A stretch of DNA of 49,665 bases, from positions 1 through 49,665 of IMG/VR virus record IMGVR_UViG_3300025889_000180; one strand, 5' to 3'. Below the pieces are notes generated by a model that searched no databases, was not told the DNA's origin, and was given only the letters and a program-made list of their open reading frames with translations. Every line of letters starts with the position of its first letter. The first letter of the stretch is position 1. This document shows, piece by piece, positions 21 to 49,307 of this stretch. The stretch comes from a virus. Both the position numbers and the translations under genes were made by a program.

Positions 21-66
21 GATGTGAGAGATTTAGAGTTTGTCAGAATCGACGATGCAAAGATAA
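18..66 (-). repeat. Promoter-leader direct repeat, copy 1
   Basis: This segment (start codon, leader and -7 box on the minus strand) matches 731-780 with about eight differences in 52 aligned positions. Both copies end exactly at a start codon, so what is duplicated is a promoter plus untranslated leader, not coding sequence. Confidence 0.85.
58..65 (-). promoter_or_regulatory. Early promoter, TATCTTTG -7 box
   Basis: The minus strand reads TATCTTTG, the Bacteroidota -7 consensus TAnnTTTG, with a TTTG -33 element 20 nt upstream. It would drive the gene starting at 20 and, if the window ends join, the whole replication operon. Confidence 0.75.
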
Positions 67-184
67 GGAACAGAATTCCAAAATCCAAATTTATTTTTTA
101 CCCTTTAGGGTAGTTTTCGCTTCTCATCGGCATGATGTATGTGCCGAACACGGCAACGTACACATCACACCATGAGGTGATGAG

Positions 185-203
185 CTTCCCTTAGAAAGGG
201 AAG
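185..203 (-). terminator. Hairpin over the stop codon of the gene at 191-733
   Basis: CTTCCCTT and AAGGGAAG form a perfect 8-bp stem with a 3-nt loop that includes the stop codon of the minus-strand gene. There is no strong T-run immediately after it, so it may be a weak terminator, an mRNA 3'-end stabilizer, or simply one more member of the local hairpin array. Confidence 0.45.
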
Positions 204-733
204 TCATCAGATGTTGGACAACCATCAGCAATCAAGGCTTCAGCCTCAATGCGGAGACGCTCCAACTCCGCAGAGCGATGACGTGCCATAGCCTCCTCAG
301 GAGACTCTCCTGGAAGGAGAGTAAGCTTCATCTGAGCCTTCTTACGAGCCTTCGGCTCGACAACCACAACCTCCTTACGAGGCTCGAAAGGCTGAGCATC
401 ACCTTCGGTGATTGCATGGACAACCTTCGTCTTGGTTACCTTGCCAACTTTGTTGGCAGTAGCAGTCTTGGCTTGAGCAAGCTCAAGACCTGCATCTGAC
501 GCCCTACGAGGAGAACGAACAGCCTTCTTCGAAGCCTTCGGCTTCTTGGCTGACTTAGCCTTCTTCGCAGATTCCTTAGGAATCTCGACAGATGACAACA
601 GCTCAGCAAGCTGAGCCATGGACGTGTTAACAGCTTTGAGCTTGCTCTCCGAAGGAGAGAAGACGAAGGAGTTAACGTTAGACTTCAACTGCTTTAGCAG
701 TTCGATACGAGTGATTTCTGATGTCTTCGACAT
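191..733 (-). CDS. Lys/Ala-rich basic protein with an SSB-like C-terminal tip
   Basis: The 180-aa product has an N-terminal helical segment, a histone H1-like Lys/Ala/Ser/Pro stretch around residues 53-80 (AKKAKSAKKPKASKKAV), a second basic patch near 125-135, and an acidic-hydrophobic end, TSDDFPF. The basic stretch suggests nucleic-acid binding. The ending resembles the bacterial SSB C-terminal tip (DDDIPF) that recruits host replication proteins; both points are inferences. Arg and Lys codons are mostly CGT/CGC and AAG, like the capsid gene and unlike the AGA-rich genes nearby, which suggests high expression. A strong early promoter lies at 772-779 with a leader shared with the left-edge gene. 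The coding sequence contains at least twelve perfect hairpins, so its RNA may have a role of its own. No family was recognised. Confidence 0.8.
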   Translation of the reverse strand: MSKTSEITRIELLKQLKSNVNSFVFSPSESKLKAVNTSMAQLAELLSSVEIPKESAKKAKSAKKPKASKKAVRSPRRASDAGLELAQAKTATANKVGKVTKTKVVHAITEGDAQPFEPRKEVVVVEPKARKKAQMKLTLLPGESPEEAMARHRSAELERLRIEAEALIADGCPTSDDFPF

Positions 734-780
734 GATGTAAGAGATTTAGATTTTGGCTGAATTGCCGATTGCAAAGATAT
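731..780 (-). repeat. Promoter-leader direct repeat, copy 2
   Basis: This is the second copy of the promoter-leader module at 18-66, ending at the ATG (733) of the Lys/Ala-rich protein gene. Conservation of the untranslated leader right up to the ATG suggests a shared regulator or RNA structure acting on both early transcripts. Confidence 0.85.
772..779 (-). promoter_or_regulatory. Early promoter, TATCTTTG -7 box
   Basis: The minus strand carries TATCTTTG with a TTTG -33 element 21 nt upstream, giving the full bipartite Bacteroidota promoter. It drives the gene at 191-733 through a leader of about 38 nt. Confidence 0.8.
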
Positions 781-1325
781 GGCGATGGGAAACGAAATGT
801 CAAATTTTTTGTCGACTAATTTCACTCGCCATTTTCCTGAGCATAATGCGCCCCCAAATCACGCGAAATTCGCGTATGTGCGTAACGTCATGCCCGCATC
901 ATGTGTGTCATGTGCGCCATCGTGAGGGAAGGTCGATATCTAACCTAAAGGTTAGGGGAGGGGGTTGTCCCTCCTTGAAACTTAACGGTTTAAAAACCGT
1001 TTGCTGTCGAACTGCTTCAACCGATGGGCTTTAGGAATCTGATTAACAGGCTATTAGCCTGGTAATCAAAAGCTAAAAGGTATGCAAGAATCCTAAAGGA
1101 TTCTAGGGGACGGGGTTGGTCAAGTCCGTTTCGGTGCAAGCACCGAGTCACTCATAGATACACATAATCCCCACGATCTGTATAGCTGGCATTTTTTTAA
1201 AGTCGGGTTGTGAACTGAGTTATGAACAAAACCCGCCTGTACACTGGTTAAAATGCTGTTACATAGAGACTTATGTGGTTTACTTAAAGTGTTACTTCAG
1301 ACTTGACTTTTACAAAAAAAAGTTG

Positions 1326-1333
1326 TAACTTCG
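1326..1333 (+). promoter_or_regulatory. Possible promoter for the structured RNA
   Basis: TAACTTCG differs from TAnnTTTG at one position and has a TTG 20 nt upstream (1303-1305). Transcription would start just before the nested fold at 1354-1428. This is weak evidence on its own. Confidence 0.3.
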
Positions 1334-1353
1334 CCAAGCTTGTTAGCGATAAA

Positions 1354-1428
1354 GCTTCGATGCTGTTTTAAGACTAAGGAGCTATCTTAGATACGTGCGT
1401 GTACGCACTAAAACAGAGACTACGAAGC
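1354..1428. ncRNA. Candidate structured RNA, nested four-stem fold
   Basis: Four perfectly complementary stems nest without conflict: P1 GCTTCG 1354-1359 with 1423-1428; P2 CTGTTTTA 1363-1370 with 1409-1416; inside P2, P3 CTAAG 1374-1378 with 1386-1390 (7-nt loop) and P4 GTGCG 1395-1399 with 1404-1408 (4-nt loop). P4 abuts the end of P2, as in a three-way junction. It is not a tRNA: no T-loop or anticodon arm fits. It could be a small RNA, a leader element, or a DNA cruciform at an origin. The strand cannot be decided from pairing alone, although the plus strand has a possible promoter just upstream. Confidence 0.55.
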
Positions 1429-1473
1429 GTCAGTCAAACATATTAAGTTGTGAAGGCGCAAAGACTGTTTTAT

Positions 1474-1481
1474 TATATTTG
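1474..1481 (+). promoter_or_regulatory. Promoter TATATTTG, 5 nt before ATG
   Basis: This perfect TAnnTTTG box lies 5 nt before the ATG at 1487 and opens the plus-strand gene series. A TTG lies 23 nt upstream, a looser spacing than at the early promoters. The short distance implies a leaderless or almost leaderless mRNA. Confidence 0.75.
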
Positions 1482-1486
1482 CAGTC

Positions 1487-1969
1487 ATGAAAGCGTTAAG
1501 ATACAATGGCGACCCTATCGACCCCAAGAAGCTAAAGAAGGGGATATCCTGGTCTGAGAGCAGAGGGGGTAAGTATATGATCAACCCTACTAGTTCTGCT
1601 ACGGGGATGTATGGGCAGCTTTATAGTCAAGTTGATGACCTCCCTATGATGCAGGGGGTATCTAGGGACTCGTTGGCGAGAGATATGAGACTACAGGATA
1701 TGCTCATGGACATGCGTATCAACGAAGGTATCGGTGGGCCTAGCTTAAGTAAGAACGCAGCTGATCTCGAAAGAGAGTATAAAGGACAGCTTGGGGAGCA
1801 ATGGAACTTCCGTCCTGATGAGGTAGCTGCTTTGAGTCACTTCTTAGGGCGTCAAGGAGCAAGGGAGTATTTTGCTTCTTTGAGAGACGGCAAGCCGTTT
1901 AATGTCCCAGGGGTGAATAAGACCCCAGAAGAATATTTACGTATTTATAATGAAGGGATAGAGAGATGA
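1487..1969 (+). CDS. Transglycosylase-like virion protein
   Basis: In this 160-aa product, residues 22-44 contain ESRGG...NPTSSATGMYGQ, resembling the active-site region of lytic transglycosylases of the SLT/goose-lysozyme fold (catalytic Glu, then a Ser/Gly-Ala/Thr-Gly-x-x-Gln stretch); E24 would be the catalytic acid. The rest, including a helical C-terminus, was not recognised. A virion-associated murein-cutting role is inferred and would fit the other cell-wall genes within 4 kb (HExxH protein, M15 peptidase). The ATG at 1487 is set by the promoter 5 nt upstream. The stop overlaps the next start (ATGA), so the genes are co-translated. Confidence 0.6.
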   Translation: MKALRYNGDPIDPKKLKKGISWSESRGGKYMINPTSSATGMYGQLYSQVDDLPMMQGVSRDSLARDMRLQDMLMDMRINEGIGGPSLSKNAADLEREYKGQLGEQWNFRPDEVAALSHFLGRQGAREYFASLRDGKPFNVPGVNKTPEEYLRIYNEGIER

Positions 1970-2229
1970 GTAAAAGAAATTACAGTCAAGAGTATGCTGA
2001 TTTTCATTCTTCTAAAGAAGCGATTCAAAAAAGATCTGAATTAAACAGCTACAACGAAAAAAATAAAGGCAAAGGAGACGCCTCTCATGATTCCAGTGGC
2101 AGGATAGTTGGACGCAGATCGGTTGCGGCTAATAGAGGAGACGGTCAGACTACTCAGGGCGATAGAAACGCTAGAGGAAAAGGAGCTAAAAGAAAGCCTT
2201 ATCGTTTGTGGAGAAAAACAAGGGATTAA
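1966..2229 (+). CDS. Small basic hypothetical protein
   Basis: The product is an 87-aa, strongly basic, Gly/Arg/Lys/Asn-rich protein without predicted membrane segments or recognisable motifs. It starts inside the stop codon of the upstream transglycosylase-like gene and is followed after 14 nt by the next gene, so it belongs to the same transcript. The composition suggests a disordered protein that may bind DNA or be packed in the virion, but no function can be assigned. Confidence 0.6.
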   Translation: MSKRNYSQEYADFHSSKEAIQKRSELNSYNEKNKGKGDASHDSSGRIVGRRSVAANRGDGQTTQGDRNARGKGAKRKPYRLWRKTRD

Positions 2230-2243
2230 ATAAATAGACAATT

Positions 2244-2960
2244 ATGACTAGACAAGAAGAAAGAGAAGCGCTTAAGCAAAAAAAGACCAACATGCGAGCC
2301 ATGCGTAAAGCAGGCAGGCGTGGAGATCAAGTTAGAGATGGGTACGAGGGGTATAAGGCTTTAAAGGCGGACGATGCTCGCGCGGCTAATACCGTACAAG
2401 AGCGTAGATCTGATAACTTTAACAAAGCAATGATAAGTGCTGCTCTTTTAGGAACTGCTGTTGGTGGTGCTGCTGTTTTAGCTCCTGGTATGTTAGCTGG
2501 CGGGCTTGGCGGTGGCGCTGCTGCTGCTGGTACTACCGCTGGTACGACAGCTGCGGGTACTGTTGCCGCTGGTACGACAGCAGGTGTGAGTGGTGCTACT
2601 ACTACTAGCGGATTGCTGGCTGGTTTAAGTGCAGCTCCTGGTGCAGGAGGGGTAGCGGCCAGTACTACTGCCGCCGCCACAACTGCTGGTACTGCTGCTG
2701 CCACCACCGCTGGTACTGCTGCTGCTAACACTATTGCAAATGTTGGAAGCGCATCGTCAAAAGCGCTGAGCCTTGGTCAGAAAGTAAATAAAGGATTGGA
2801 AATATCAAATCAAGTAAACGACGTCTACGGAGCCATAAAAGAAATGAATGAGCAATTTAATCAACCTCAGACTTACGAGGTAGAGCCTGGATCAGATTTA
2901 TTGACTCAACCTACTGGCCCTGACTACAGTTATTTTACTCCAACCTGGTACTATAATTAA
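2244..2960 (+). CDS. Ala/Gly/Thr-rich protein with glycine-zipper segment
   Basis: The 238-aa product has three parts: a basic N-terminus (residues 1-60), a long low-complexity Ala/Gly/Thr region (about 65-170) that begins with a hydrophobic glycine-zipper-like stretch (LGTAVGGAAVLAPGMLAGGL), and an acidic, polar C-terminus. The DNA of the middle part contains degenerate GCTGGTAC-type repeats. Such sequences can insert into membranes, and ejected internal virion proteins often have them; that role is an inference. An antisense open frame over the Ala-rich part is a composition artefact. Confidence 0.65.
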   Translation: MTRQEEREALKQKKTNMRAMRKAGRRGDQVRDGYEGYKALKADDARAANTVQERRSDNFNKAMISAALLGTAVGGAAVLAPGMLAGGLGGGAAAAGTTAGTTAAGTVAAGTTAGVSGATTTSGLLAGLSAAPGAGGVAASTTAAATTAGTAAATTAGTAAANTIANVGSASSKALSLGQKVNKGLEISNQVNDVYGAIKEMNEQFNQPQTYEVEPGSDLLTQPTGPDYSYFTPTWYYN

Positions 2961-2964
2961 TTAC

Positions 2965-2972
2965 TATATTTG
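2965..2972 (+). promoter_or_regulatory. Promoter TATATTTG, 4 nt before ATG
   Basis: This perfect TAnnTTTG box lies 4 nt before the ATG at 2977, in the short gap after the Ala/Gly-rich gene. No -33 TTTG is visible at the usual distance. Confidence 0.7.
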
Positions 2973-2976
2973 TGCT

Positions 2977-3384
2977 ATGAGATCAATTACGAAAGGTGGA
3001 GAACCTAAACAATCTATGAAGGTTTCTGGGCAGTACGCCCTGACGCCTATACAGCAAACCGAAGGTGGTGACCAGTTTGTAGAAATGGAACTACCTAACG
3101 GTAAAACAGCTACAGTTTTCGGCGACTGGGAAAGTTACGGTAATCCAGACCAGGAAGGTCGCATAGAGGATATGGACTACAGAATATACCCGCTTGGAGA
3201 CGGAACTTACGCTCTTGATGCTGGAGAGATGGAAAGCGAAATGATGAGAAATGAGGGCAGAGAGTTTGCAAGCCAAGCCCAAGGAGGTCAGGGAGCTTCT
3301 AAAATGGAAGATCTTTTAGAGATGCTGACCCAAAGAAAAGGGATGGGTCAATCACAAAATGGTGGAATGAGGCCAGTAAAATAA
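2977..3384 (+). CDS. Hypothetical protein
   Basis: This 135-aa protein has a central beta-rich segment (FVEMELPNGKTATVFGDWE) and a Met/Gln/Gly-rich, probably disordered C-terminus with a short helix near 108-120. No family was recognised. It has its own promoter with a 4-nt gap to the ATG, and the next gene follows after 5 nt. Its place among probable virion and lysis genes suggests a minor structural protein. Confidence 0.65.
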   Translation: MRSITKGGEPKQSMKVSGQYALTPIQQTEGGDQFVEMELPNGKTATVFGDWESYGNPDQEGRIEDMDYRIYPLGDGTYALDAGEMESEMMRNEGREFASQAQGGQGASKMEDLLEMLTQRKGMGQSQNGGMRPVK

Positions 3385-3389
3385 AAAAC

Positions 3390-3929
3390 ATGGCTTCACC
3401 TAAGTATACAAAATACCGATCTAATGAAGGTGCTTTAGGCACGGCAGAACAGAGGCTTGTTGGCGCTCTCCAAAGCCAAGGCGTCGGCGCTGAGGGGTTG
3501 ATGTATCTTTTGTCTTCTATGCGCTCACCTAGTGATCAAGAACGCATGAATGCTATGTTCTCTGATCGGCCAGAATATACTGCGCCTGGTAGAGCATACA
3601 GAACGGAGAGCGGTGCTGTAAGGTATCAACCACCGTCAGATATCGAAGGAGAGTACCTAGGAGAAGGTAGACGTATCACCAAAGAAGATGTAGCTGAGAT
3701 TACAGGCGGTAGAGCTGAAACGAAAGAGAGGGGACAGATTGCTGTAGCTAAGATGTTGGAAGATCCAGCGGTACTCAGATACTTTATGGATATATACGGT
3801 AAAGCTGGAGAAGCTTTTAGCCCTCGTTTAGCTAAAATATCTAGAGGTAAAGGATCAGAGGATTGTCAGCCAGATAGAACTGGTAAGATACCAGCTAGTT
3901 GCAAAGGCCAGAAGGACGCTTACAATTAA
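3390..3929 (+). CDS. Hypothetical protein
   Basis: The 179-aa product is mostly helical and polar, with a basic C-terminal third containing two Cys residues (about 161 and 171). No motif was recognised. The stop codon TAA overlaps the ATG of the next small frame (TAATG), a coupling used repeatedly in this genome. It is likely co-transcribed from the promoter at 2965. Confidence 0.6.
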   Translation: MASPKYTKYRSNEGALGTAEQRLVGALQSQGVGAEGLMYLLSSMRSPSDQERMNAMFSDRPEYTAPGRAYRTESGAVRYQPPSDIEGEYLGEGRRITKEDVAEITGGRAETKERGQIAVAKMLEDPAVLRYFMDIYGKAGEAFSPRLAKISRGKGSEDCQPDRTGKIPASCKGQKDAYN

Positions 3930-4066
3930 TGGGTAGTAAGAACTACTTCAATCCTAGATTAAAAAGAATAGATCCTTCGTGGGTGGCAGAAAAAAATAAC
4001 TTAAGAAATGACACCAAAAAAAACATCTCTAGAAAGAAAACAGGCAAGGGCGGGAAGGAGATATGA
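3929..4066 (+). CDS. Small hypothetical protein, 45 aa
   Basis: This short frame starts in the TAATG overlap with the upstream stop and ends 59 nt inside the next gene. The product is basic (N-terminus MGSKNYFNPRLKRIDPSW) and has no recognisable domain. The coupled start speaks for translation; the long overlap with the following gene and the short length speak against it. It could instead be a translational bridge to the gene at 4008. Confidence 0.4.
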   Translation: MGSKNYFNPRLKRIDPSWVAEKNNLRNDTKKNISRKKTGKGGKEI

Positions 4067-4604
4067 CAGAAGGGTAGGTAGAACACCTATTACAGACGCT
4101 AAGACACAAGATATGCTTATGGCTCTGTCTCAGATGAGGCAAGATGTAGATAACAAGTTGCCAGCTGGATCTTACCTCATGAACGAAAAGAGGATAATAA
4201 AATATCCTGGCGCTGGAGAAGACGTTATTGAACATGAAAAAGTCCACGCCGCCCAGCACAATATGCTTGGTCGGCTACGTGTTCAAGACCCAGAGATTAG
4301 AAAAGCTTCTAGAGCTCTTAATAAGTCTATAACCGAAGACCAATTAGCTTCATTTACAGAAGCTGGTAAGTACATAAGACAGCCCCATGAACTAGAAGCT
4401 CACCTTAGGGGTGCTGCACCAATGATTAAAAGTCTTGGACTAAAAGATAGTAGCTTTGACGAAATACTTATAGGACTGCAAAGAGCTGAGGAAGAAGGTG
4501 TTAGCAATCAAAACATGAGGAACTTGATGCTGTTTATGCAAAATGAGTTCACCCCAGAACAAAAAAATATTATTGAATCTGCTTTTAAATCTTCAGGGAT
4601 TTGA
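4008..4604 (+). CDS. HExxH zincin-like protein
   Basis: The 198-aa product contains HEKVHAAQH at residues 76-84, a zinc-metallopeptidase HExxH motif, followed about 50 residues later by HELEAHL (127-133), which could supply the third ligand as in gluzincin-like folds. The N-terminus is basic and the C-terminus helical. No signal peptide is visible, so it probably acts inside the cell or as a virion component. It lies between small virion-like genes and a lipoprotein/M15 peptidase pair. The family is not certain; catalytic function is inferred from the motif only. Confidence 0.6.
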   Translation: MTPKKTSLERKQARAGRRYDRRVGRTPITDAKTQDMLMALSQMRQDVDNKLPAGSYLMNEKRIIKYPGAGEDVIEHEKVHAAQHNMLGRLRVQDPEIRKASRALNKSITEDQLASFTEAGKYIRQPHELEAHLRGAAPMIKSLGLKDSSFDEILIGLQRAEEEGVSNQNMRNLMLFMQNEFTPEQKNIIESAFKSSGI

Positions 4605-4612
4605 TATATTGG
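4605..4612 (+). promoter_or_regulatory. Possible promoter TATATTGG, 4 nt before ATG
   Basis: The box matches TAnnTTTG at all but one position and sits exactly 4 nt before the ATG at 4617, the same spacing as at the perfect boxes. Confidence 0.45.
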
Positions 4613-4616
4613 CCTT

Positions 4617-4796
4617 ATGAAAAAATTTATTCTACTCCTTATTTCAGTCGTAACCCTGGCTAGCTGTTCACCTCATACTACGCCAGCTAAGCATCGTCGC
4701 TACCACAAGAGCAAGATGAAAGGTCCAGATTTTCCAGGCACAACATGCATGAACAATGAATCTCAGCAAGAATTTATCGCTCAAAGAAGTTATTAA
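4617..4796 (+). CDS. Small outer-membrane lipoprotein, possible o-spanin-like lysis protein
   Basis: This 59-aa frame encodes a signal peptide (MKKFILLLISVVTLASC) ending in a lipobox L-A-S-C with Cys17 as the lipidated residue. A short basic mature part of about 42 residues follows (HRRYHKSK), with a second Cys at 44. It overlaps the start of the M15 peptidase gene by 41 nt in another frame. Small lipoproteins beside or inside lysis genes are typical of o-spanins; a spanin role here is inferred, and a moron-type surface lipoprotein is the alternative. A promoter-like box lies 4 nt before the ATG. Confidence 0.6.
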   Translation: MKKFILLLISVVTLASCSPHTTPAKHRRYHKSKMKGPDFPGTTCMNNESQQEFIAQRSY

Positions 4797-5217
4797 GTCT
4801 AATACAGCAACTCGCCTTGGGATAGACAACACCCCAGAGCAATGGGAAATTAATAACTTGCGAGCCGTAGCCGATAACGTCTTTCAGCCGCTACGCGATC
4901 ACTTTGGCATCCCTATAGGAGTAAGCTCTGGATATAGGTGCAAAGCCTTAAATAAGGCTATCGGGGGGAGCAAGTACTCACAGCATATGATTGGTGAGGC
5001 TCTCGACCTGGACGCAGATATATATGGAGGTTTGAAGAACTCAGAGATATTCAACTATATCAAGAAAAACCTTGAATGGGATCAGATGATATGGGAGTTC
5101 GGCGATGACGAAGAGCCAGACTGGGTTCACGTATCGTACAAAGAGTCTGGGAATAACAGGAAGCAAATTAAAAGAGCGTACAGAGATTCTTCTGGCGTGT
5201 ATTATAAAGTAATATAA
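4756..5217 (+). CDS. M15-family peptidase (endolysin-like)
   Basis: The 153-aa product is a D-Ala-D-Ala carboxypeptidase-like peptidase of family M15A. The zinc-binding pattern SQHMIGEALDLD (H77, D84) and WVHVSY (H125) is complete, preceded by the conserved SSGYRC segment (58-62). It would cleave cross-links in peptidoglycan, either as endolysin or as a virion-associated enzyme; there is no signal peptide, so release through the holin is expected. The gene overlaps the upstream lipoprotein gene, and its stop overlaps the next ATG (TAATG). Confidence 0.85.
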   Translation: MNLSKNLSLKEVIKSNTATRLGIDNTPEQWEINNLRAVADNVFQPLRDHFGIPIGVSSGYRCKALNKAIGGSKYSQHMIGEALDLDADIYGGLKNSEIFNYIKKNLEWDQMIWEFGDDEEPDWVHVSYKESGNNRKQIKRAYRDSSGVYYKVI

Positions 5218-5354
5218 TGGCTAAAGCTAAACTTGTAGACTACGCACCAAAAGACACTAAAGTGTCTAGACCAGGTGTCCATGCTAAGACTAAATCCTCT
5301 AAGATTAAGACTAGTAAAAACTACAAAAAAGCCTATCGTGGGCAAGGGCGTTAA
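5217..5354 (+). CDS. Small Lys-rich protein, 45 aa
   Basis: The frame starts in the TAATG overlap with the M15 gene and encodes a basic protein beginning MAKAKLVDYAPKDTK and ending in KNYKKAYRGQGR. Small Lys-rich proteins of this type seem familiar from marine phages, always beside structural genes, but no function is known to me. The coupled start and the good composition support it over the overlapping alternative frame at 5275-5475. It converges with the reversed regulator gene and overlaps its 3' end by 4 nt. Confidence 0.6.
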   Translation: MAKAKLVDYAPKDTKVSRPGVHAKTKSSKIKTSKNYKKAYRGQGR

Positions 5355-5770
5355 AGAGCGTTGTAAAAACGCTGTACCGCTAGCCTACCTTTCTGCGATA
5401 GCGCATAACGAACTCTGTAATTATATTTTGTTTCATCACGGAACAGATGATCCTCTAGAGTATTCGAAGGTGTAAGCTTATCGAAATGTTTGTATATATA
5501 CCCAGCTATAACCAGTGGGTATATCATCCTGTCCGCTAAGTTCTTTCGATTCATTCCATATTCAGAAGCCAAGTAGTCTATGGTGAAGAATTCAAGATCG
5601 TATATAAACAACATTAGGTTTAAATAAGATTTAGTCAGATCGGGATTGTTTTCAATAAAATCATTTGTAGCCGACCTAAGATTTTTTAAAAAGTTTTTGT
5701 TTATATATTTTTCAGGAAGTTTTGATGCCTCTCTGAATAACCTTGATTTTTTAACCGTAGATTTAGGCAT
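5351..5770 (-). CDS. Winged-helix transcription regulator, reversed in the late region
   Basis: The 139-aa product has a helix-turn-helix/winged-helix arrangement in its second half: FFTIDYLASEYGMNRKNLADRMIYPLVIAGYI around residues 60-91 looks like a recognition-helix region followed by a wing, and the C-terminus (RYALSQKGRLAVQRF) resembles the end of MarR/PadR-like domains. It is the only gene on the minus strand between 1487 and 41702 and faces the next gene across 41 bp. That gap contains a palindrome over the -7 box of the divergent gene. Control of the adjacent promoter, and perhaps of its own, is inferred. The exact family is unknown. Confidence 0.7.
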   Translation of the reverse strand: MPKSTVKKSRLFREASKLPEKYINKNFLKNLRSATNDFIENNPDLTKSYLNLMLFIYDLEFFTIDYLASEYGMNRKNLADRMIYPLVIAGYIYKHFDKLTPSNTLEDHLFRDETKYNYRVRYALSQKGRLAVQRFYNAL

Positions 5771-5784
5771 AGATATTATTATTG

Positions 5785-5797
5785 TATCTTTGAGATA
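5785..5797 (+). promoter_or_regulatory. Promoter TATCTTTG with overlapping palindrome (possible operator)
   Basis: The -7 box TATCTTTG (5785-5792) for the gene at 5812 is part of a perfect inverted repeat TATCT-TTG-AGATA (5785-5797). It lies between the divergent regulator gene and its neighbour, where a repressor site would block the box. Confidence 0.55.
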
Positions 5798-5811
5798 AAC
5801 AAATTTACATC

Positions 5812-6117
5812 ATGAACCCTAAAGACACCCTCTTCTTTGCCGAAATGTATTCCCTCGTCAAGAAGATGGAGGAGACCATTGATGAGTTCGATATGAAAGA
5901 CAGAACTCTGGCGTCAATAGTCATAGGCGTTATTGATCATGACGCAATTGAAGACGGCGACGAGTCAGCTGAGATGAAAACAATGTACAGCTTTAATATA
6001 CAGAGCAGACATGAGTTAGACGCTCTTAAAGAAGTAATGGACAGCGCATATCAAGATGAAGACGACGAGATTGATCTTGATGACTTTTTAGGCGACTTGG
6101 GGATATCTTTAAATTGA
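5812..6117 (+). CDS. Acidic hypothetical protein
   Basis: The 101-aa product is very acidic, with an Asp/Glu-rich C-terminus (DEDDEIDLDDFLGDLG) and an N-terminal amphipathic helix. No family was recognised. It has its own promoter with a leader of about 19 nt and stands opposite the winged-helix regulator, so it may be that regulator's main target. Acidic small phage proteins can mimic DNA or act as adaptors, but nothing here proves it. Confidence 0.65.
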   Translation: MNPKDTLFFAEMYSLVKKMEETIDEFDMKDRTLASIVIGVIDHDAIEDGDESAEMKTMYSFNIQSRHELDALKEVMDSAYQDEDDEIDLDDFLGDLGISLN

Positions 6118-6149
6118 TATTATGTTAAAATTAAACAAATTAATTTTAT

Positions 6150-6386
6150 ATGGAAGGCTTAATCAGGAAAATAGTAGTCGGCAAAGATCCTAAAAACGGC
6201 ATGGCATATTACTCTGGCATGCGAGCTGGAAAGGGAGAGATTTGCGCAATTGTAATGGACGAAGAGCATTTGTTCCGTTATCAGAAAAAAAGATATTTAA
6301 TCTACATAGAATCAGAGGGCTCTACGATGCTTTGGAAGTCTATAGATTCTATGCCATGCATAATTGAATTTGATTTAAATTTTTAA
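6150..6386 (+). CDS. Hypothetical protein
   Basis: The 78-aa product is a compact, probably beta-rich protein (segments GEICAIVMDEEHLFRYQ and KRYLIYIESEG). No motif was recognised. It lies 32 nt after the acidic gene and 1 nt before the GroES-like gene, so the three are probably one transcript. Confidence 0.6.
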   Translation: MEGLIRKIVVGKDPKNGMAYYSGMRAGKGEICAIVMDEEHLFRYQKKRYLIYIESEGSTMLWKSIDSMPCIIEFDLNF

Positions 6387-6387
6387 A

Positions 6388-6972
6388 ATGGAAAGCTTAA
6401 ACTCTTTCATTGTCTACCTTGAAAAAAGGTATGACAACGAAATTGAAACCAAAGGAGGGCTAAAGCTCTACATAGAGACCAAGTTTGAACCCTTTAAAAA
6501 CAGAGTAAATGAAGGCAAAGTTGTTGCAGTTCCTGCAAAATATGAAACAGGCGTGGAAGTCGGGGACACCCTTTACTTCCATCATCTTGTTGTTTTGGCT
6601 GATGGTCAACCTCTTCCTGTTGATGATAATCATTATGTTGTATGTTATCATCCTGAGCATGCCATTAGTTCTCAAGCTATTGCTTACAAGTCTGAAAAGA
6701 CTGGCGAAATCCACCCTCTCTCTACCTGGTCAATTCTTCAACATGTTGAGCAAAAGAAAGAGATTAAATCGAACATTATTGAAGTTGTTGAGCTTAAAGA
6801 AAGGCAAGTCAAGAAAGCTAAGGTTGCTTTTGAAAACAATCACCTCAAAAAGCTAGGTGTTAAAAAAGGCGACATCGTAGGTATTCGAAAGGACTCTGAT
6901 TACTCTTTTAAGATAGACGGAGAGACTTTTTATCGTACTCGATTAGACGATCTATTGTATGTCGAAGCTTAA
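6388..6972 (+). CDS. GroES-like co-chaperonin with two domains
   Basis: The 194-aa product has two regions resembling the GroES fold. The first (residues 1-75) has FIVYLEKR..., a glycine-rich turn, GKVVAVP and VEVGDTLYFHH. The second (about 125-194) ends GVKKGDIVGIRKDSDYSFKIDGETFYRTRLDDLLYVE, close to the conserved GroES C-terminus (VGDIV...Y.....I.G.E....R..DLL..VE). GroES has about 97 residues, so this looks like a tandem duplication or a highly diverged pair. It would work with host GroEL to fold phage proteins such as the capsid, as T4 gp31 does. No GroEL partner is encoded here. Confidence 0.65.
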   Translation: MESLNSFIVYLEKRYDNEIETKGGLKLYIETKFEPFKNRVNEGKVVAVPAKYETGVEVGDTLYFHHLVVLADGQPLPVDDNHYVVCYHPEHAISSQAIAYKSEKTGEIHPLSTWSILQHVEQKKEIKSNIIEVVELKERQVKKAKVAFENNHLKKLGVKKGDIVGIRKDSDYSFKIDGETFYRTRLDDLLYVEA

Positions 6973-7249
6973 GTTTACAACTATAAGCGCTGCCGAACGA
7001 CTTATGGAGAGCATGGAGGTAGCTATAAACAATATGATCGAGGAGATTAAAAAACCCGTCGATCCAGAGGCTGGTGGCTCTGCTAGGAAGGCGGAGCTAC
7101 AGTCTATCAAGCAGACGGCTATAGACTGTAAAGAGTTACTGGTAGAGCGCCAGCGATTAGAACAAATGGTTAAAGATCTTAAGAACAATGGAGAAATCGA
7201 AGAAACAAAAGACTACTCAGGAGGATTTGCAGAAAGGTACTCAAAGTAG
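6959..7249 (+). CDS. Coiled-coil hypothetical protein
   Basis: The 96-aa product is mainly helical with heptad-like hydrophobic spacing (residues 10-85), suggesting a coiled coil. Its start overlaps the end of the GroES-like gene by 14 nt. No function was recognised. Confidence 0.6.
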   Translation: MSKLKFTTISAAERLMESMEVAINNMIEEIKKPVDPEAGGSARKAELQSIKQTAIDCKELLVERQRLEQMVKDLKNNGEIEETKDYSGGFAERYSK

Positions 7250-7337
7250 ACCTAGCGGGTTGATTTATTGGGACGACTATAACTTTAAACAGAACAACAC
7301 ACAAGAACTTGAAGAGATAGAATATACGCCTTCGTAG
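7188..7337 (+). CDS. Small ORF ending inside the tRNA gene, 49 aa
   Basis: An ATG at 7188, within the end of the coiled-coil gene, opens a 49-codon frame (MEKSKKQKTTQEDLQK...) whose TAG stop is bases 8-10 of the tRNA. The middle part (SGLIYWDDYNF) has a plausible hydrophobic cluster. Translation through the 5' edge of a tRNA would be unusual, so it may be spurious. It fits the habit of close overlaps here and fills an otherwise empty 78-nt gap. Confidence 0.4.
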   Translation: MEKSKKQKTTQEDLQKGTQSRPSGLIYWDDYNFKQNNTQELEEIEYTPS

Positions 7338-7401
7338 CTCAGCTGGATAGAGCAACAGCCTTCTAAGCTGTGGGTCACAGGTTCGAGTCCTGTCGAGGGT
7401 A
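7328..7401 (+). tRNA. tRNA-Arg (anticodon UCU)
   Basis: All four arms fold: acceptor GCCTTCG with CGAGGGT (one G-U at the end, one inside), D stem GCTC/GAGC, anticodon stem ACAGC/GCTGT with loop CTTCTAA (anticodon TCT at 7362-7364), and T stem ACAGG/CCTGT with loop TTCGAGT. CCA is not encoded. It reads AGA/AGG, and AGA is a frequent Arg codon in most late genes here, so the phage carries the tRNA that its own codon use needs. Confidence 0.95.
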
Positions 7402-7419
7402 CTAATTAAATTAAACAAC

Positions 7420-7608
7420 ATGCCAGACCTATATTGCCCTGAATGCGGTAAGGAACGCTTTGAGCGATCCCTTACTATGAAAGTAAAAGACGGAAGCACT
7501 TACTTCTTAGAAGGAGAGTGTGAGTGCGGAACCCAAATGAAATTATCCAATCCTAAGACGGGTGTGCCGTCTATTGGGAAGATGGATAAATTTGGAAGAA
7601 GTTATTGA
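7420..7608 (+). CDS. Zinc-ribbon protein
   Basis: The 62-aa product begins MPDLYCPECGKERF and later has GECECGTQM: a C-x2-C plus C-x-C pattern that can hold one zinc ion (C6, C9, C34, C36). It is followed, with a TGATG overlap, by the terminase gene. Small zinc-ribbon proteins before TerL may help packaging or DNA binding; the position also invites comparison with a small terminase subunit, but no such domain is visible. Confidence 0.65.
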   Translation: MPDLYCPECGKERFERSLTMKVKDGSTYFLEGECECGTQMKLSNPKTGVPSIGKMDKFGRSY

Positions 7609-9752
7609 TGTCCACCTTAATCGACATAAAAGGATATGAGACTAAGGGGATTAAGATCGACCCTAACGATACAGAGGGAGAAGTTATTGAGCTCCATGGG
7701 CTACTCGTGGTACTTCCAAAGAAACCACCCAGATCGCAGATTCTCTTCCATGACCTACCAAAGGCAATGCAGCTGTGGCAAAGGATACCTATGCCAGAGG
7801 AGTTGCAGCGGATACGCAGTATGGATGAGTGGCTCGAAAAGCCTTCCGAGTTTCGAAAGAAGTTTCATTCTTACATCGAACAGGAGTTTCAGCGTAGGCG
7901 TGACGGTGTTTGGTTTTACAATAATGGGGAACCTACGTATATTACAGGGAGACACTATATGTTTCTACAATGGTCTAAAATTGATGTCGGATATCCATCA
8001 TACCTCGCTTTCCAAAGAGAGATCTTTCTCCACCTGGCTGCTTGCGAAGCTGATCCCCGTTGTTTCGGTCAGCTTTATACTAAGTGTCGTCGTTCTGGCT
8101 ACACTAATATATGTTCTGCTGTACTTGTGGATGAAGCTAGTCAAGTTAAAGAAAAGCTTCTTGGCATTCAATCGAAAACTGGTAAAGACGCCCAGGAGAA
8201 CATTTTCATGAAGAAGGTGGTCTCTATCTTTAGAGGCTACCCATTCTTTTTTAAACCTATACAAGACGGTACGACAAACCCGCGTATGGAACTGGCGTTT
8301 CGTGAGCCATCAAAAAGGATCACGAAAAACAACAAGACCTCGCAGCATGGAGATGCCCTTAACAGCGGGATAAACTGGAAGAACACCACGAATAACGCAT
8401 ACGACGGCGAGAAACTACATATGTTGTATCTCGATGAGGCTGGCAAGTGGGAGAAACCTAGTGATATCAGAGAAGCCTGGAGGATAGAAAGAACGTGTCT
8501 TATCGTTGGTAAAAAAATTGTAGGGAAGGCTCTTGTAGGGAGTACGGTAAACCCTATGGATAAAGGAGGGGAAGAGTACAGAGACCTCTGGAAAGACTCA
8601 GATCCAAACGAACGCAACAACAACGGAAGAACCAGGTCTGGCCTGTACAGGATATTTATTCCAGCTTATGAAGCTCTAGAGGGGTTTTTTGATAGGTATG
8701 GAAACCCAGTCATCGACGATCCTTCCGAAAGCGTACACATACATGGTGACGTAATAGGTATTGACGGTCTTGCTATTGATATGGGGAGCCGTAAGTATTT
8801 AAAAAACGAGCGACATTCCTTTAAAGACGACCCTTCTGAACTTAATGAGATCATCAGGCAGTTTCCGTTTACCGAAGATGAAGCATTCAGGGACAGCATT
8901 GAGGGTAGTTTATTCAATATCGGAAAGATATATCAGCAGATAGAACACAACGATAATATATACCCCAATCCAGTAGTAAGAGGCAATTTTGTTTGGCGAA
9001 CAAAAGACGAAGAGGCTGTTTTCTCCCCAGACCCTAATGGAAGGTTTTTTGTGGCTTGGCTTCCGCCAGACCACCTTAGAAACATAAAAAAGGACGATAA
9101 AGGAAAAAAGATAGCCCCAAATGCTCATATAGGCGTTGGAGGTGTTGACTCCTACGACCTTGACGCTACGGTGGACGGAAGGGGCTCTAAAGGAGCTTTA
9201 CACATGTACAACAAGTTCAACATGGACGTCCCTGGAAATATGTTCGTGGTAGAGTATGCTTCACGCCCAGATCTAGCTAGCATCTTCTATGAGGATGTAC
9301 TTATGTGTGCTTTCTTTTATGGTTACCCTATACTTATAGAGAACAACAAGTACGGTATCGCAAGATACTTTGAATCAAGGGGTTACGACGGTTACTTAAT
9401 GGACCGTCCAGACTTCTTAAAGAATCCTAACTCTTCTACTAACGTTAGGACAAAAGGCATCCCTTCTAACTCTCAGGATGTTATCCAGGCTCACGCCCAT
9501 GCTATAGAGGCATATATCCACGATCACGTAGGTATTAACCCAGAAAACGGCGAAATCGGTAAGATGCTTTTTAATAGGACTCTAGAAGATTGGATAGGTT
9601 ACAAGATAGATAAAAGAACTAAGTTTGACTTGACTATTAGTTCTGGTCTGGCCCTTTTAGCAGCTCAGAAATCAAAGAAAGAAAAACCAGTATCTACCTT
9701 TAACGATAAGAAGTTTTTTAGGACTTTTAAGCCAAAAGCTTGGCACTCCTAG
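7608..9752 (+). CDS. terL: Terminase large subunit
   Basis: The 714-aa product is the ATPase-nuclease motor that packages DNA into the prohead. A degenerate Walker A-like segment is near residues 157-168 (YTKCRRSGYTNI), a Walker B at about 271-278 (MLYLDEAG), and an RNase H-like nuclease domain begins near 508 (GVGGVDSYDLDAT), followed by a second acidic motif near 575 (ILIENNKYG). The ATG at 7608 overlaps the previous stop (TGATG) and is preferred over the TTG one codon earlier. The portal gene follows after a promoter. Confidence 0.93.
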   Translation: MSTLIDIKGYETKGIKIDPNDTEGEVIELHGLLVVLPKKPPRSQILFHDLPKAMQLWQRIPMPEELQRIRSMDEWLEKPSEFRKKFHSYIEQEFQRRRDGVWFYNNGEPTYITGRHYMFLQWSKIDVGYPSYLAFQREIFLHLAACEADPRCFGQLYTKCRRSGYTNICSAVLVDEASQVKEKLLGIQSKTGKDAQENIFMKKVVSIFRGYPFFFKPIQDGTTNPRMELAFREPSKRITKNNKTSQHGDALNSGINWKNTTNNAYDGEKLHMLYLDEAGKWEKPSDIREAWRIERTCLIVGKKIVGKALVGSTVNPMDKGGEEYRDLWKDSDPNERNNNGRTRSGLYRIFIPAYEALEGFFDRYGNPVIDDPSESVHIHGDVIGIDGLAIDMGSRKYLKNERHSFKDDPSELNEIIRQFPFTEDEAFRDSIEGSLFNIGKIYQQIEHNDNIYPNPVVRGNFVWRTKDEEAVFSPDPNGRFFVAWLPPDHLRNIKKDDKGKKIAPNAHIGVGGVDSYDLDATVDGRGSKGALHMYNKFNMDVPGNMFVVEYASRPDLASIFYEDVLMCAFFYGYPILIENNKYGIARYFESRGYDGYLMDRPDFLKNPNSSTNVRTKGIPSNSQDVIQAHAHAIEAYIHDHVGINPENGEIGKMLFNRTLEDWIGYKIDKRTKFDLTISSGLALLAAQKSKKEKPVSTFNDKKFFRTFKPKAWHS

Positions 9753-9758
9753 TTTTAC

Positions 9759-9784
9759 TATATTTGCATTGAGTTAAAAAACTC
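9759..9784 (+). promoter_or_regulatory. Promoter TATATTTG with hairpin leader before the portal gene
   Basis: A perfect -7 box at 9759-9766 is followed by a leader of about 30 nt with a hairpin GAGTT-AAAA-AACTC (9771-9784). It is unlike the leaderless promoters, and the hairpin may affect translation of the portal protein. Confidence 0.6.
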
Positions 9785-9796
9785 TACTCATTGCAG

Positions 9797-12226
9797 ATGT
9801 ACAATAAAGATAAAAATTCATCTACTTTTCCAGATCCTTTCTGTACTTCAGAGGAAAAAAGGTCAAAAGATTATGGGCTTAAATATGCTAAGTCTATATA
9901 TTCTCAATGGGGAAAAATAGATCAAGATGGCTCTAGTTATAAAAACAGGAGAAACACCTTTGAAAGAAACAGGAAGTACGCAAACGGAACTCAAGACACG
10001 TCTATATATAGGTCGCTTCTTACTTCTTTGGATCCTAATAACGGTGATGGAAGTATGCTTAACCTGGATTTTACACCAGTGCCCATCCTTCCTAAATTCG
10101 TAAGGATCGTAGTAAATAAAATTCTTTCTTTAAACCCATATCCTAACTTAGAAGCTGTAGACCCTCTGTCTTCTAGTGAGAAAGATTTAGAAAGAAAAAA
10201 GATAGAATATGCTGTAAAAGCTAAAAAAGCCCTTACTGGAATTAATGAAAAGCTTGGTGTTCAAATTGCTGGACCAACAGAAAATATACCAGAAAGTTTA
10301 GAAGAGGCTGAAATTTTTATAGGCAACAACATTAAATCTAATTCTGAAATTGCAGCTCAGATTGCCACAAGCCTGACCCTAGAGTGGAATAGTTTTAATG
10401 ACAATATTCTGAGAAGGTGTGTAAACGACCTGACCGTATTAGGTATGGCCGTTGTAAAAAGAAGCAATGATCCAGAATACGGCATAAAAACAGACTATAT
10501 AGACCCAGCTTCGTTTATTCATAGCTATACTGAAGACCCAAACTTTGAAGATATAGTGTATGCTGGTCACGTAAAGTACTTAACTATTAGCGAGTTAAAA
10601 AGATTAGCTGGCGATCAATTCACCGACGAAGATTATAAAAAAATTGCCCAGTCTGCTCAAAAAAGATACGGATATAATAGCGATAAGTTAAATCAGTCTG
10701 CCTATGATCAAATGTCTAATTCTATGACTCGTGGATTCGATGAGTATAGAGTTGGAATTCTTGACTTCGAGTTTTTATCTGTTGACACTGAATACTTTGA
10801 ATCAAAAGAAAGCAGATTTGGCAATGTTGGGTTTTATCCCAAAGGAGAAGTTTATAAAACTCCTAAAAACTCTGTTTTTAATAGAGAGGTTCAAAAACTT
10901 GAAAACGCTTGCGTTTATGGAGGCTCTTACATTTTAGGTACCGAATTTATTTTCGATTACGGAAAGAAAACAAACATCCCTAAAAACGTTCATGATATAA
11001 CTCGGACCAACATGTCTTACTCTGTTTGTGCTACAAACTTTTTAGACATGATTCCAAAGTCCATGGTTGACAGCTGTATTGGTTTTGCAGATCAACTCCA
11101 GTTAACCCACCTTAAGATTCAGCAATCTGTAGCTAAAGCAAAGCCAGACGGTATAATCATTGATATTGAAGGTCTTGAAAATGTTCAGCTCGGAAAAGGT
11201 GGAGAGCTACAACCATTGGATCTTCACGACATCTATGAACAAACTGGTGTTTTTTATTACAGAAGTAAAAATCCAGAGGGGGGCTTTCAGAACCCTCCAA
11301 TTAGAGAGATAAACAATAGTATCAGAAACATTAATGAGCTTATTGGTTTGTACAACCATTACCTTAGAATGATTCGTGATGCTACTGGCATTAACGAGGT
11401 TATGGATGCCTCTTCACCAAAGTCAGATGCTCTAGTTGGCGTTCAGCAACAAGCTCTTGCGGCTGCCAATAATGCTATATATGACATTACAAACTCCTCT
11501 ATGATTTTGTATAAAAAGGTCTGTAGCGACATTGTAAAATGCATTCAGATTATTCATCCTGATTCTGTTCTATATCGCATTTACCAAAATGCTATAGGAA
11601 AAGAAAATATGAAGGTTTTAACCTCATTCAAGGATTTGGCTATGTATAACTTTGGTGTTCGCGTAGTGAAAGAGATGGAGGATTCTGAAAGACAATACTT
11701 AGAGCAAAACATTCAAATTGCTTTGTCTCAAAAAGAAATAGACTTAGAAGACGCTGTTGCTGTTCGTCAGTTAAAAGACATTAACCAAGCTGAAAGACTT
11801 TTAATTGTTAGGAGAAAGAAAAGAATTGCTCAGCAGCAGCAAATCGCAATGCAGAATTCACAGCAACAAGCTCAGATTCAACAACAGTCGGCTCAGGCAT
11901 CTTCTCAGGCCAGACAGCAGGAAATGCAAATGGAAGCTCAGCTAAAATCTCAAGAATTGCAATTAAAGGCGCAGCTTGAAGCCCAGCTTGAGCAAGTAAA
12001 ACACGGGTTTAGAAAAGAGATAGAGATAATTAAAGCTCAAGCCCTTTTAGGTGTTAGGTCTGATGATCAACAATTTAAGGAAAAACTCGAAACCTTAAAG
12101 GAAGATCGAAAAGATGATCGCGTTAAAAAACAAACAATAGAGCAGAGCAAGCTAATATCTCAAAGACAAGGGGAAAGAGGGGAGCTTCAGGATAATAGCA
12201 CTATATCACCAGAAATATTATTGTAA
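9797..12226 (+). CDS. Portal protein
   Basis: The 809-aa product forms the ring at the capsid vertex through which DNA passes. It is recognised by size, by position directly after TerL, and by the conserved helical region around residues 520-570 (NELIGLYNHYLRMIRDATGINEV, then SPKSDALVGVQQQA). The C-terminal 130 residues are Gln-rich and form a predicted coiled coil, as in barrel-bearing portals of podoviruses. The ATG at 9797 is preferred over a TTG two codons earlier. It is followed by the first tail-fibre gene after 1 nt. Confidence 0.88.
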   Translation: MYNKDKNSSTFPDPFCTSEEKRSKDYGLKYAKSIYSQWGKIDQDGSSYKNRRNTFERNRKYANGTQDTSIYRSLLTSLDPNNGDGSMLNLDFTPVPILPKFVRIVVNKILSLNPYPNLEAVDPLSSSEKDLERKKIEYAVKAKKALTGINEKLGVQIAGPTENIPESLEEAEIFIGNNIKSNSEIAAQIATSLTLEWNSFNDNILRRCVNDLTVLGMAVVKRSNDPEYGIKTDYIDPASFIHSYTEDPNFEDIVYAGHVKYLTISELKRLAGDQFTDEDYKKIAQSAQKRYGYNSDKLNQSAYDQMSNSMTRGFDEYRVGILDFEFLSVDTEYFESKESRFGNVGFYPKGEVYKTPKNSVFNREVQKLENACVYGGSYILGTEFIFDYGKKTNIPKNVHDITRTNMSYSVCATNFLDMIPKSMVDSCIGFADQLQLTHLKIQQSVAKAKPDGIIIDIEGLENVQLGKGGELQPLDLHDIYEQTGVFYYRSKNPEGGFQNPPIREINNSIRNINELIGLYNHYLRMIRDATGINEVMDASSPKSDALVGVQQQALAAANNAIYDITNSSMILYKKVCSDIVKCIQIIHPDSVLYRIYQNAIGKENMKVLTSFKDLAMYNFGVRVVKEMEDSERQYLEQNIQIALSQKEIDLEDAVAVRQLKDINQAERLLIVRRKKRIAQQQQIAMQNSQQQAQIQQQSAQASSQARQQEMQMEAQLKSQELQLKAQLEAQLEQVKHGFRKEIEIIKAQALLGVRSDDQQFKEKLETLKEDRKDDRVKKQTIEQSKLISQRQGERGELQDNSTISPEILL

Positions 12227-12227
12227 G

Positions 12228-12626
12228 ATGGCTACAACTATAAATTTAGACACGTCTCAAAGGGTGGACATAATTTGTAAAAAAGGAGATACATTTTCTT
12301 TAAGGCTTACGGTAACAGATTCTAGTGGCGCCGCCAATTTTGCTGTCGGGGATGTTTTTCTGATGGAAGTAAGAGATTCCGATACTGGAGACCCTGTATC
12401 TAACAGAGAAAATCCAGCTGTTAATTTTTCTATTACAGTAACGGCAGACTCTGACGACGTTACCGCAAAGTATGTTGATCTCACTTTGGCCGCCACTACA
12501 ATGAAAACCATGCCTTCTGGCTTGTATGTGTATGACGTCGAGCAAAAAACAACTTCAGGCGTGGTATCCACTTTAATTTATGGTACACTCAAGGTAAACG
12601 AAGATATTTCTGAAACAGTCTCTTAA
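12228..12626 (+). CDS. Tail appendage/baseplate-like protein (BppU-N-like)
   Basis: The 132-aa product is beta-rich and resembles the N-terminal domains that attach receptor-binding proteins to tails: a start with DxxxGDTFSLRLTVTD, then DVFLMEVRDSDTGDP and a C-terminal YVYDVEQKTTSGVVSTLIYGTLKV. The likeness to BppU_N is by pattern only. It sits between portal and fibre genes, so an adaptor role is likely. Confidence 0.55.
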   Translation: MATTINLDTSQRVDIICKKGDTFSLRLTVTDSSGAANFAVGDVFLMEVRDSDTGDPVSNRENPAVNFSITVTADSDDVTAKYVDLTLAATTMKTMPSGLYVYDVEQKTTSGVVSTLIYGTLKVNEDISETVS

Positions 12627-12635
12627 AGATGTGCC

Positions 12636-40375: not shown

Positions 40376-40584
40376 GCGTCGAAACCCTCAGTCATTTTGA
40401 ATTCTTAATGGTGGCTTTAAGCCTTGTTGGGGGCTGGGTGAAGTTTCACGCCGATTATAATAGGTTGTCTGCTAGAGTCGAAGCTTTGGAGAACGACAAT
40501 ACAGAGTTTAAAGCAGACGTAAGACAGATACTAAAAGACATTCAAGAAATTAAGCTACTTTTGGCTAAGAACCAAATGCAATGA
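40372..40584 (+). CDS. Spanin-like membrane-anchored coiled-coil protein
   Basis: The 70-aa product has one N-terminal hydrophobic segment (residues 9-25, FEFLMVALSLVGGWVKF) followed by a charged coiled coil (29-66). This is the layout of an inner-membrane spanin, although i-spanins are usually longer. The lipoprotein gene at 4617 would be the outer-membrane partner, but it is far away. A holin regulator is an alternative. The stop overlaps the next ATG. Confidence 0.55.
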   Translation: MSVETLSHFEFLMVALSLVGGWVKFHADYNRLSARVEALENDNTEFKADVRQILKDIQEIKLLLAKNQMQ

Positions 40585-48771: not shown

Positions 48772-49307
48772 CGAACAAACTTCTGTAAACCAGTTACTTG
48801 TTTCTCTGTGAGTGAACCACCATACTTGTTCATGATGGAGTCGAATGCTTTCTTCTTGTCTGTCTGAGACTTGATGTAAGCAACAGCCTTGTCCATGATG
48901 TTCTCAGGTGGAGCCGTGTCAAACTTTTCCTGAACCGAGTTAATCATCTCTTGCTTTGCAATAGCAACCTCTACTTCGTTGGCTGAAGCAATGGATGTGT
49001 CGATACCGATGCCTAAGATGCCTAACGCTCTACCAATAGCTGATGTCTCACAGTTCTCTACGAAGCTTGTCTTGTTGATCATGCTTGAGCTACGCTCTTC
49101 GTGAGCGTGTCCAGTAGCCACTACGTTGCCTGTGCTGTCTGCAATCCTGCAAATGCACACACACATCTCGCTATCTAGACTAGTGAAGTCTGTTGTTATA
49201 CTCCAGCCTTTGTACTGGTCTTCTTGGCGAAAGAACTTGATACGCTCGTTGACTTCAACGTAGTCTTTGCCCTTGATTTTAGTTGTCTTGAACTTGTAAT
49301 TGCTCAT
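48768..49307 (-). CDS. Single-strand annealing protein (ERF/Rad52-like)
   Basis: The 179-aa product has the ERF/Sak-type signature ENCETSAIGRALGILGIGID (84-103) after a beta-rich N-terminal half (VCICRIADSTGNVVATGHAHEE). Such proteins bind ssDNA and anneal complementary strands during phage recombination or replication. It pairs functionally with the exonuclease at 47714. A 29-nt overlap with the DnaA-like gene shows co-transcription. Confidence 0.8.
   Translation of the reverse strand: MSNYKFKTTKIKGKDYVEVNERIKFFRQEDQYKGWSITTDFTSLDSEMCVCICRIADSTGNVVATGHAHEERSSSMINKTSFVENCETSAIGRALGILGIGIDTSIASANEVEVAIAKQEMINSVQEKFDTAPPENIMDKAVAYIKSQTDKKKAFDSIMNKYGGSLTEKQVTGLQKFVR

Follow-up and report, generated by a model that had tools for sequence, protein, structure and literature searches.

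A dense array of perfect mini-hairpins, conserved in structure and not in sequence, at the early genes of a crAss-like virus

Why should about 1 kb of a viral genome be crowded with short perfect inverted repeats that run through a gene and the non-coding DNA beside it, and what keeps them perfect? The question was raised by a linear 49,665-base record in IMG/VR (IMGVR_UViG_3300025889_000180), the whole of which is called the window below. The virus is crAss-like, with a terminase of phrog_6681 and a portal (phrog_6547) about 32% identical to that of Cellulophaga phage phi38:1. The hairpin array lies between the late operon, which runs from 1487 on the plus strand, and the early genes, and it crosses the first gene of the early operon (191–733, minus strand). 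The 180-aa Lys-rich product of this gene resembles a histone H1 tail. The protein matched no Pfam or PHROG family, the gene had no match in the searched genome and phage collections, and the predicted protein structure was of low confidence (pTM 0.27).

Related viral contigs were scanned with the 180-aa protein, its alignments and one neighbouring early gene; their loci carry L numbers, several loci being one contig recovered more than once. L001, 99.9% identical to the window over 5.7 kb, extends beyond its left end and shows a run of small early genes there. Upstream of the 180-aa gene, the window virus has the box TATCTTTG (772–779, minus strand), which we take to be a Bacteroidetes-type -7 promoter box. 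Positions 18–65 and 731–779 form a repeat of 85.7% identity over the promoter and leader of two early genes that follow one another (TATCTTTG ... AAATCTCTNACATCATG). At the place of the box, relatives carry a long palindrome: in L013–L026 the last 60 bp before the gene hold a long imperfect palindrome around GAATTC-TGT-GAATTC, which abuts the start codon and replaces the TATCTTTG of the window.

Read on the minus strand, the start of the array is marked by a single-copy conserved element, TATACAGATCGTGGGGATTATGTGTA (1159–1184; consensus AATACAGATCGTGGGGATTATRTATA). The first hairpin, TCGGTG-CTTG-CACCGA (1131–1146), lies 13 nt past this element and has other perfect arms in relatives. It is followed in the non-coding DNA by AGAATCC-TTTA-GGATTCT (1087–1104), CAGGCT-AAT-AGCCTG (1047–1061, within a longer imperfect stem at 1029–1079), AACGGTT-TTTA-AACCGTT (984–1001), GGAGGG-(6 nt)-CCCTCC (957–974), CTAACC-TTTA-GGTTAG (940–955), and ACGCGA-ATT-TCGCGT (861–875). 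Inside the gene, AACTGC-TAAA-GCAGTT (687–702), CTCTCC-TTC-GGAGAG (645–659), GCTCAG-CTTG-CTGAGC (601–616), AGATTCC-TAA-GGAATCT (569–585), GAAGCC-GAA-GGCTTC (531–545), CTTGAG-CTTG-CTCAAG (472–487), TGCCAAC-AAA-GTTGGCA (442–458), ATCACC-GAA-GGTGAT (398–412), and CGAGCC-GAA-GGCTCG (345–359) precede an overlapping pair at 298–322, composed of ACTCTCCT-TCC-AGGAGAGT (304–322) and CAGGAG-AGT-CTCCTG (298–312). The hairpin CTTCCCTT-TCT-AAGGGAAG (185–203) lies across the stop codon, and the tail of the array (99–182) contains 5-bp hairpins at 99–112 and 142–155 and CATCAC-(8 nt)-GTGATG at 163–182.

When a hairpin was defined strictly, as a perfect stem of at least 6 bp with a loop of 3–5 nt, 18 were counted at 99–1146 against 50 in the remaining 48.6 kb (1.03 per kb; Poisson P ~2e-16). 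The initial annotation had reported about twenty perfect inverted repeats in about 1 kb, and this holds if the hairpins with loops of 6 (957–974) and 8 (163–182) and the 5-bp hairpin at 99–112, all outside the strict definition, are added. Twelve of them had been assigned to the 543-bp gene; eleven do lie wholly within it, whereas the twelfth (185–203) spans the stop codon. The remaining descriptive statements agreed with our data: no arm sequence is shared among the window hairpins, the best 1-kb stretch outside the array holds 4 strict hairpins, and the recurrent loops CAAG, TAAA/TTTA, and TTC/GAA are present in the window and hold across relatives.

The protein is rich in Lys, Ala, and Pro, and a few hairpins repeat (KPKAS), so that composition, codon use or the repetitive KPKA sequence of the protein might have produced the hairpins as a by-product. 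The shuffle comparison that had been set beforehand does not bear this out. Codon-preserving shuffles of the gene gave 1.37 ± 1.05 hairpins (maximum 5 in 1000 shuffles) against the observed 11, and dinucleotide shuffles of 734–1150 gave 0.29 against 6, whereas the stretch 1487–13000 had an ordinary count of 14 against 9.3 shuffled. Codon-preserving shuffles fell far short in every strong-array genome, including L003 (20 hairpins vs. 2.13), L056–L062 (17–22 vs. 1.2–2.1), and L084, L086, and L087 (10–17 vs. 0.9–1.3); only the weak arrays of L006–L008 were reached, and by extreme shuffles. In addition, the non-coding parts equal the coding part in hairpin density relative to their own shuffles. 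For the strong arrays, composition and codon use are thus ruled out as the cause, and we regard a by-product origin as hardly credible. The array is confirmed as real, strong, and far above chance.

At least 20 distinct related viral contigs have an array in this position, built from other arms; in the group the arrays comprise 18–34 hairpins over about 1.2 kb. Some of these arrays are denser than that of the window (27–34 hairpins in about 1.25 kb in L016–L026), and L013–L015 have 17–18. In the nearer set, the 180-aa protein is 53–70% identical by alignment; in L084 and L087 it is 35–42% identical over the N-terminal part, and the array is kept with wholly different arms. However, L027–L029 have only a weak array, and in L082, L079, and L069 the place is taken by a related first early gene, or by a short gene whose composition is similar, with no array. 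Thus, the array is not essential to the lineage. The nearest named relatives, phi38:1, the Flavobacterium elemo phages and MW202828, share a homologous portal and terminase with the window virus (~28–48% identity) but, unlike it, lack the array; in phi38:1, elemoE, and MW202828 none occurs anywhere in the genomes (best 4–5 hairpins per kb).

Two observations concern the contigs themselves. Several contigs, independent of one another, terminate within the array or at it (window base 1, base 1 of L004 and L021, and the ends of L025 and L030), which suggests that the array breaks assemblies. Separately, positions 1–1076 of L087 are perfectly palindromic, with arms of 536 bp around a central CTAG; this may be a genuine inverted duplication or a chimera from amplification or assembly.

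The other comparison set beforehand concerned the fate of the stems in related genomes, and there they are kept through compensatory changes. In the codon alignment, GAGTTGC-TGAAG-GCAACT (ELLKAT) corresponds to GAGCTGC-TGAAG-GCAGCT (ELLKAA), and CGATGC-TTTA-GCATCG (DALAS) to CGAAGC-TTTA-GCTTCG (EALAS) and CAAGGC-TTTA-GCCTTG (KALAL). Four coding hairpins were followed through 12 genomes, giving 300 aligned pair cells. Among them, 99.0% were paired and 30 were changed on both sides against 9.4 in shuffles, counts that span related genomes and are not independent events; no one-sided G.U change occurred in the 300 cells. When the partners were slid by 1–3 columns, only 24–50% of the pairing was left. 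The gene shows 21 distinct pairs with compensated changes, and each of these changes was non-synonymous on at least one side. Projection of the non-coding upstream hairpins between genomes, whose counts are likewise not independent events, gave 210 compensated and 224 identical cases, 87 with one broken pair and 703 with more, the last because hairpins there move and turn over. Structure is therefore conserved and sequence is not, and the paired changes override the encoded protein.

Whether the conserved structure belongs to RNA or to DNA was judged from the loops, the stems, and the mismatches. An early or antisense transcript might fold into serial hairpins for the sake of stability, regulation or the binding of protein; the array does start at a fixed point where transcription could begin, it runs with the early transcript, and CUUG is a good RNA loop. 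If RNA were the selected strand, G.U pairs would be tolerated on that strand. Against 164 perfect stems, 55 unique one-mismatch stems were found, with G.T in 7, A.C in 10, and other mismatches in 38. On either strand, G.T and A.C were no commoner than the number of mismatch types predicts, the rRNA positive control being too small to inform. Per kb, imperfect stems are slightly above background and perfect stems about elevenfold; where a single pair is broken in an otherwise intact stem, it is mostly the outermost one. Covariation with G.U wobble on the transcribed strand, the mark of a structured RNA, was thus not found; the pairs that are retained are Watson-Crick only.

The loops point in the same direction. 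GNA triloops form very stable DNA mini-hairpins. In a census of 283 unique hairpins from 22 arrays, GNA/TNC made up 78 of 160 triloops against 20 expected, that is, nearly half of the triloops fall in this DNA class. The excess of GAA loops in the gene comes partly from codons, yet the upstream part also has GNA/TNC loops (TAC 9, TTC 4, GTA 2). Among the 104 tetraloops, CTTG/CAAG (26) and TTTA/TAAA (21) were frequent, GNRA loops were few, and UNCG was absent; UNCG is stable in RNA only, whereas GNRA and CUUG are stable in DNA as well (PMC8794818). The loops showed no consistent preference for one strand and so give no sign of a single-strand-specific reader. Stems of 6, 7, 8, and 9 bp numbered 111, 118, 48, and 6 in the census, with the mode at 7 and none of 10 bp or more, whereas background stems fall geometrically. 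In the non-coding part, GC content declines over these four lengths (0.51, 0.47, 0.43, and 0.39), so that longer stems are AT-richer, as a stability threshold predicts. An Rfam search of the window matched only a tRNA (7328–7401, plus strand), a phage tRNA gene for tRNA-Arg by similarity to other phages, and assigned no RNA family to the array. On the G.U test, the loop types and Rfam, an RNA fold was rejected as the main cause, and a structured transcript is in our judgement unlikely. DNA structure is favoured and RNA structure disfavoured. The suggestion of selection for structure in the initial annotation is therefore strongly supported by the paired changes as far as structure conservation is concerned, but its structured RNA is disfavoured and its packaging signal found no support.

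The array disregards gene ends and behaves like something launched at the element. In the window and in 22 of the 25 contigs with the array locus, this 26-bp sequence is present once per locus, in one orientation that always points into the array. The first hairpin begins 12–13 bp past it in 13 of 19 genomes, the 200 bp ahead of it contain none, and hairpin density is high for about 1.2 kb from it and down to background by about 2.7 kb. A histogram of the hairpin spacings showed, on inspection, no clear period. The intergenic block that adjoins the array (window 1190–1480; about -750 to -480 from the gene start in L012–L026) has a mean column identity of 69% over 13 genomes and includes one co-varying hairpin and several invariant motifs; a structured RNA in this block was not retained, RNAalifold giving only weak covariation.

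Short DNA hairpins in a phage early region recall bacteriophage N4. CrAss-like relatives are known to carry virion RNA polymerases, and GNA/TNC loops are enriched in the arrays, so hairpins extruded by supercoiling and read by such a polymerase had to be weighed. The early promoters of N4 are short DNA hairpins with 3-base loops, extruded in a gyrase-dependent manner and read by the injected polymerase (PMC4496689), and the array shares with them the short 3-nt-loop hairpins that supercoiling can form. However, N4 has three promoters with conserved bases, whereas the hairpins of the array number in the tens, have neither arm nor flanking sequence in common, and carry loops that occur in both strand orientations and are inverted between relatives. 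The 2607-aa protein of the window contains a D-x-D-G-D-like string (DGDGD), but no polymerase match was obtained, and neither PDB nor the named PHROGs gave a match to it. The gene adjoining that of this giant protein, which has an LPD38 domain, encodes a Peptidase_M43 (pappalysin-type) domain (40581–41702, plus strand). The unrelated arms, the lack of shared bases and the lack of a fixed loop strand speak against an N4-type promoter, and we consider hairpin promoters of this kind very improbable. Palindromic protein-binding sites such as operators were likewise rejected, as they would share arms.

A further explanation requires no function at all. In a mutational zone, frequent template switching would perfect short quasi-palindromes, by fold-back of the nascent strand, either at an origin or where heavy transcription makes the DNA prone to R-loops, and hairpins would pile up downstream of the element. 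Precedents exist: template switching is reported to make and maintain perfect hairpins with enrichment of GNRA and CUUG loops (PMC8794818), and transcription-associated perfection of quasi-palindromes is described in yeast (PMC3820800). Several features of the array agree with this explanation, namely the directional onset and decay from one element, the rewritten amino acids, and pairing that is perfect or absent with few intermediates. The near absence of imperfect intermediates is explicable by templated correction without any function. The footprint of template switching, perfect arms and a loop inverted on unchanged arms, was also observed: the hairpin at 472–487 has the same arms in L013–L015 with the loop CAAG (Leu to Gln), and TAT/ATA, TAAA/TTTA, TCAA/TTGA, CTTG/CAAG, and TATG/CATA inversions were seen, three of them between L018 and L019. 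On near-identical arms, inversions made up 8 of 43 multi-difference pairs against 3.7 expected, a modest statistic (P ~0.02) drawn from related genomes.

Template switching alone accommodates other features less well. The stem class is narrow, cut off sharply below 6 bp and empty above 9 bp, longer stems are AT-richer, and deeply diverged genomes maintain the same density although the protein pays for it; the size class, the stability trend and this persistence argue for selection as well. A functionless mutational zone is the main rival, a possibility that we take seriously and hold to be somewhat improbable. Template switching itself, which the initial annotation had offered as the alternative to selection, is upheld by the few imperfect intermediates and some loop inversions as a contributing process, but it is not fully separable from selection here.

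The reading we prefer, to which we give an even chance, is that of a cis-acting array of DNA mini-hairpins that folds in a single-stranded or underwound control region and is kept by both selection and templated correction. The control region, an early promoter and/or a replication origin in the divergent region, would become single-stranded or underwound from the side of the element. The opened DNA may then fold, from about 12 bp past the element, into serial mini-hairpins with perfect 6–8 bp stems and DNA-stable loops of 3–4 nt. The string of hairpins might act as a structural platform, for instance one on which primase or helicase is loaded, to which a structure-binding protein attaches, or which protects exposed single strands. 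Selection for the fold, assisted by hairpin-templated (template-switch) correction, would maintain the perfect arms; the correction would also flip a loop occasionally.

The element may serve as an early promoter, as an origin, or in both roles. That the array region is an origin is possible from the sequence, for which there are weak hints. The window virus encodes a DnaB-like primase-helicase and a 122-aa protein (49279–49647, minus strand) that matched Bac_DnaA_C, a DnaA domain IV-type helix-turn-helix, weakly (E 9e-5, a match that falls short of the Pfam curated cut-off) and that had no match in PDB. In addition, a DnaA-box-like doublet, GTGGATAWC-NN-GTGNATAAC, lies just ahead of the element in 6 of 25 loci and is absent in the window. 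In the basal unwinding system of DnaA, a pair of DnaA boxes lies near the unwinding motif, with a maximum spacer of 16 bp in the published search. The distance from the doublet to the AT-rich part of the element exceeds this maximum, and these hints do not fit the published architecture. The GC skew of the window tracks gene direction and does not separate an origin from transcription.

No such array was found in the database families, Rfam or the open-licence literature searched, although absence there is not proof of novelty. The closest known phenomenon is the coding palindromes of nematomorph mitochondrial DNA, discussed as possibly parasitic (PMC6649704), which share with the array inverted repeats in coding sequence that are either perfect or missing, imperfect ones showing no excess; this binary perfection also fits the mutational explanation. 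However, the nematomorph palindromes are long (up to 284 bp) and scattered over mitochondrial genes, whereas the array has uniform 6–9 bp stems in one 1.2-kb zone of a dsDNA phage, with a fixed start, and extends into non-coding DNA. With stems of 6–9 bp only and at one locus, it does not belong to that class. The hairpins maintained by template switching (PMC8794818) are similar in their perfect stems, simultaneous paired changes, CTTG-type loops, and occasional loop inversion, but they lie in RNA genes under RNA selection, whereas the array, at one locus, has no G.U pairs and no UNCG loops.

The array may represent an undescribed genetic element of crAss-like phages, in which hairpins are launched from a single-copy opening site and DNA structure, in place of protein or RNA, is the conserved trait that dictates the amino acids of the resident gene; in our estimate this is equally likely to be right or wrong. 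When genomes show conserved secondary structure, the usual explanation is RNA; the pairing rules of this array instead indicate DNA, within coding sequence, and the covariation is so strict that intermediates are nearly missing. If the array is purely mutational, it would be among the clearest natural records of hairpin-templated mutation, and its rules, such as stem size, loop preference, inversion, and distance from the start site, would become measurable. If it is functional, it would constitute a cis element of a new class, by which phage genomes are opened, primed or regulated, and would offer a natural means of assaying how DNA hairpins form in cells.
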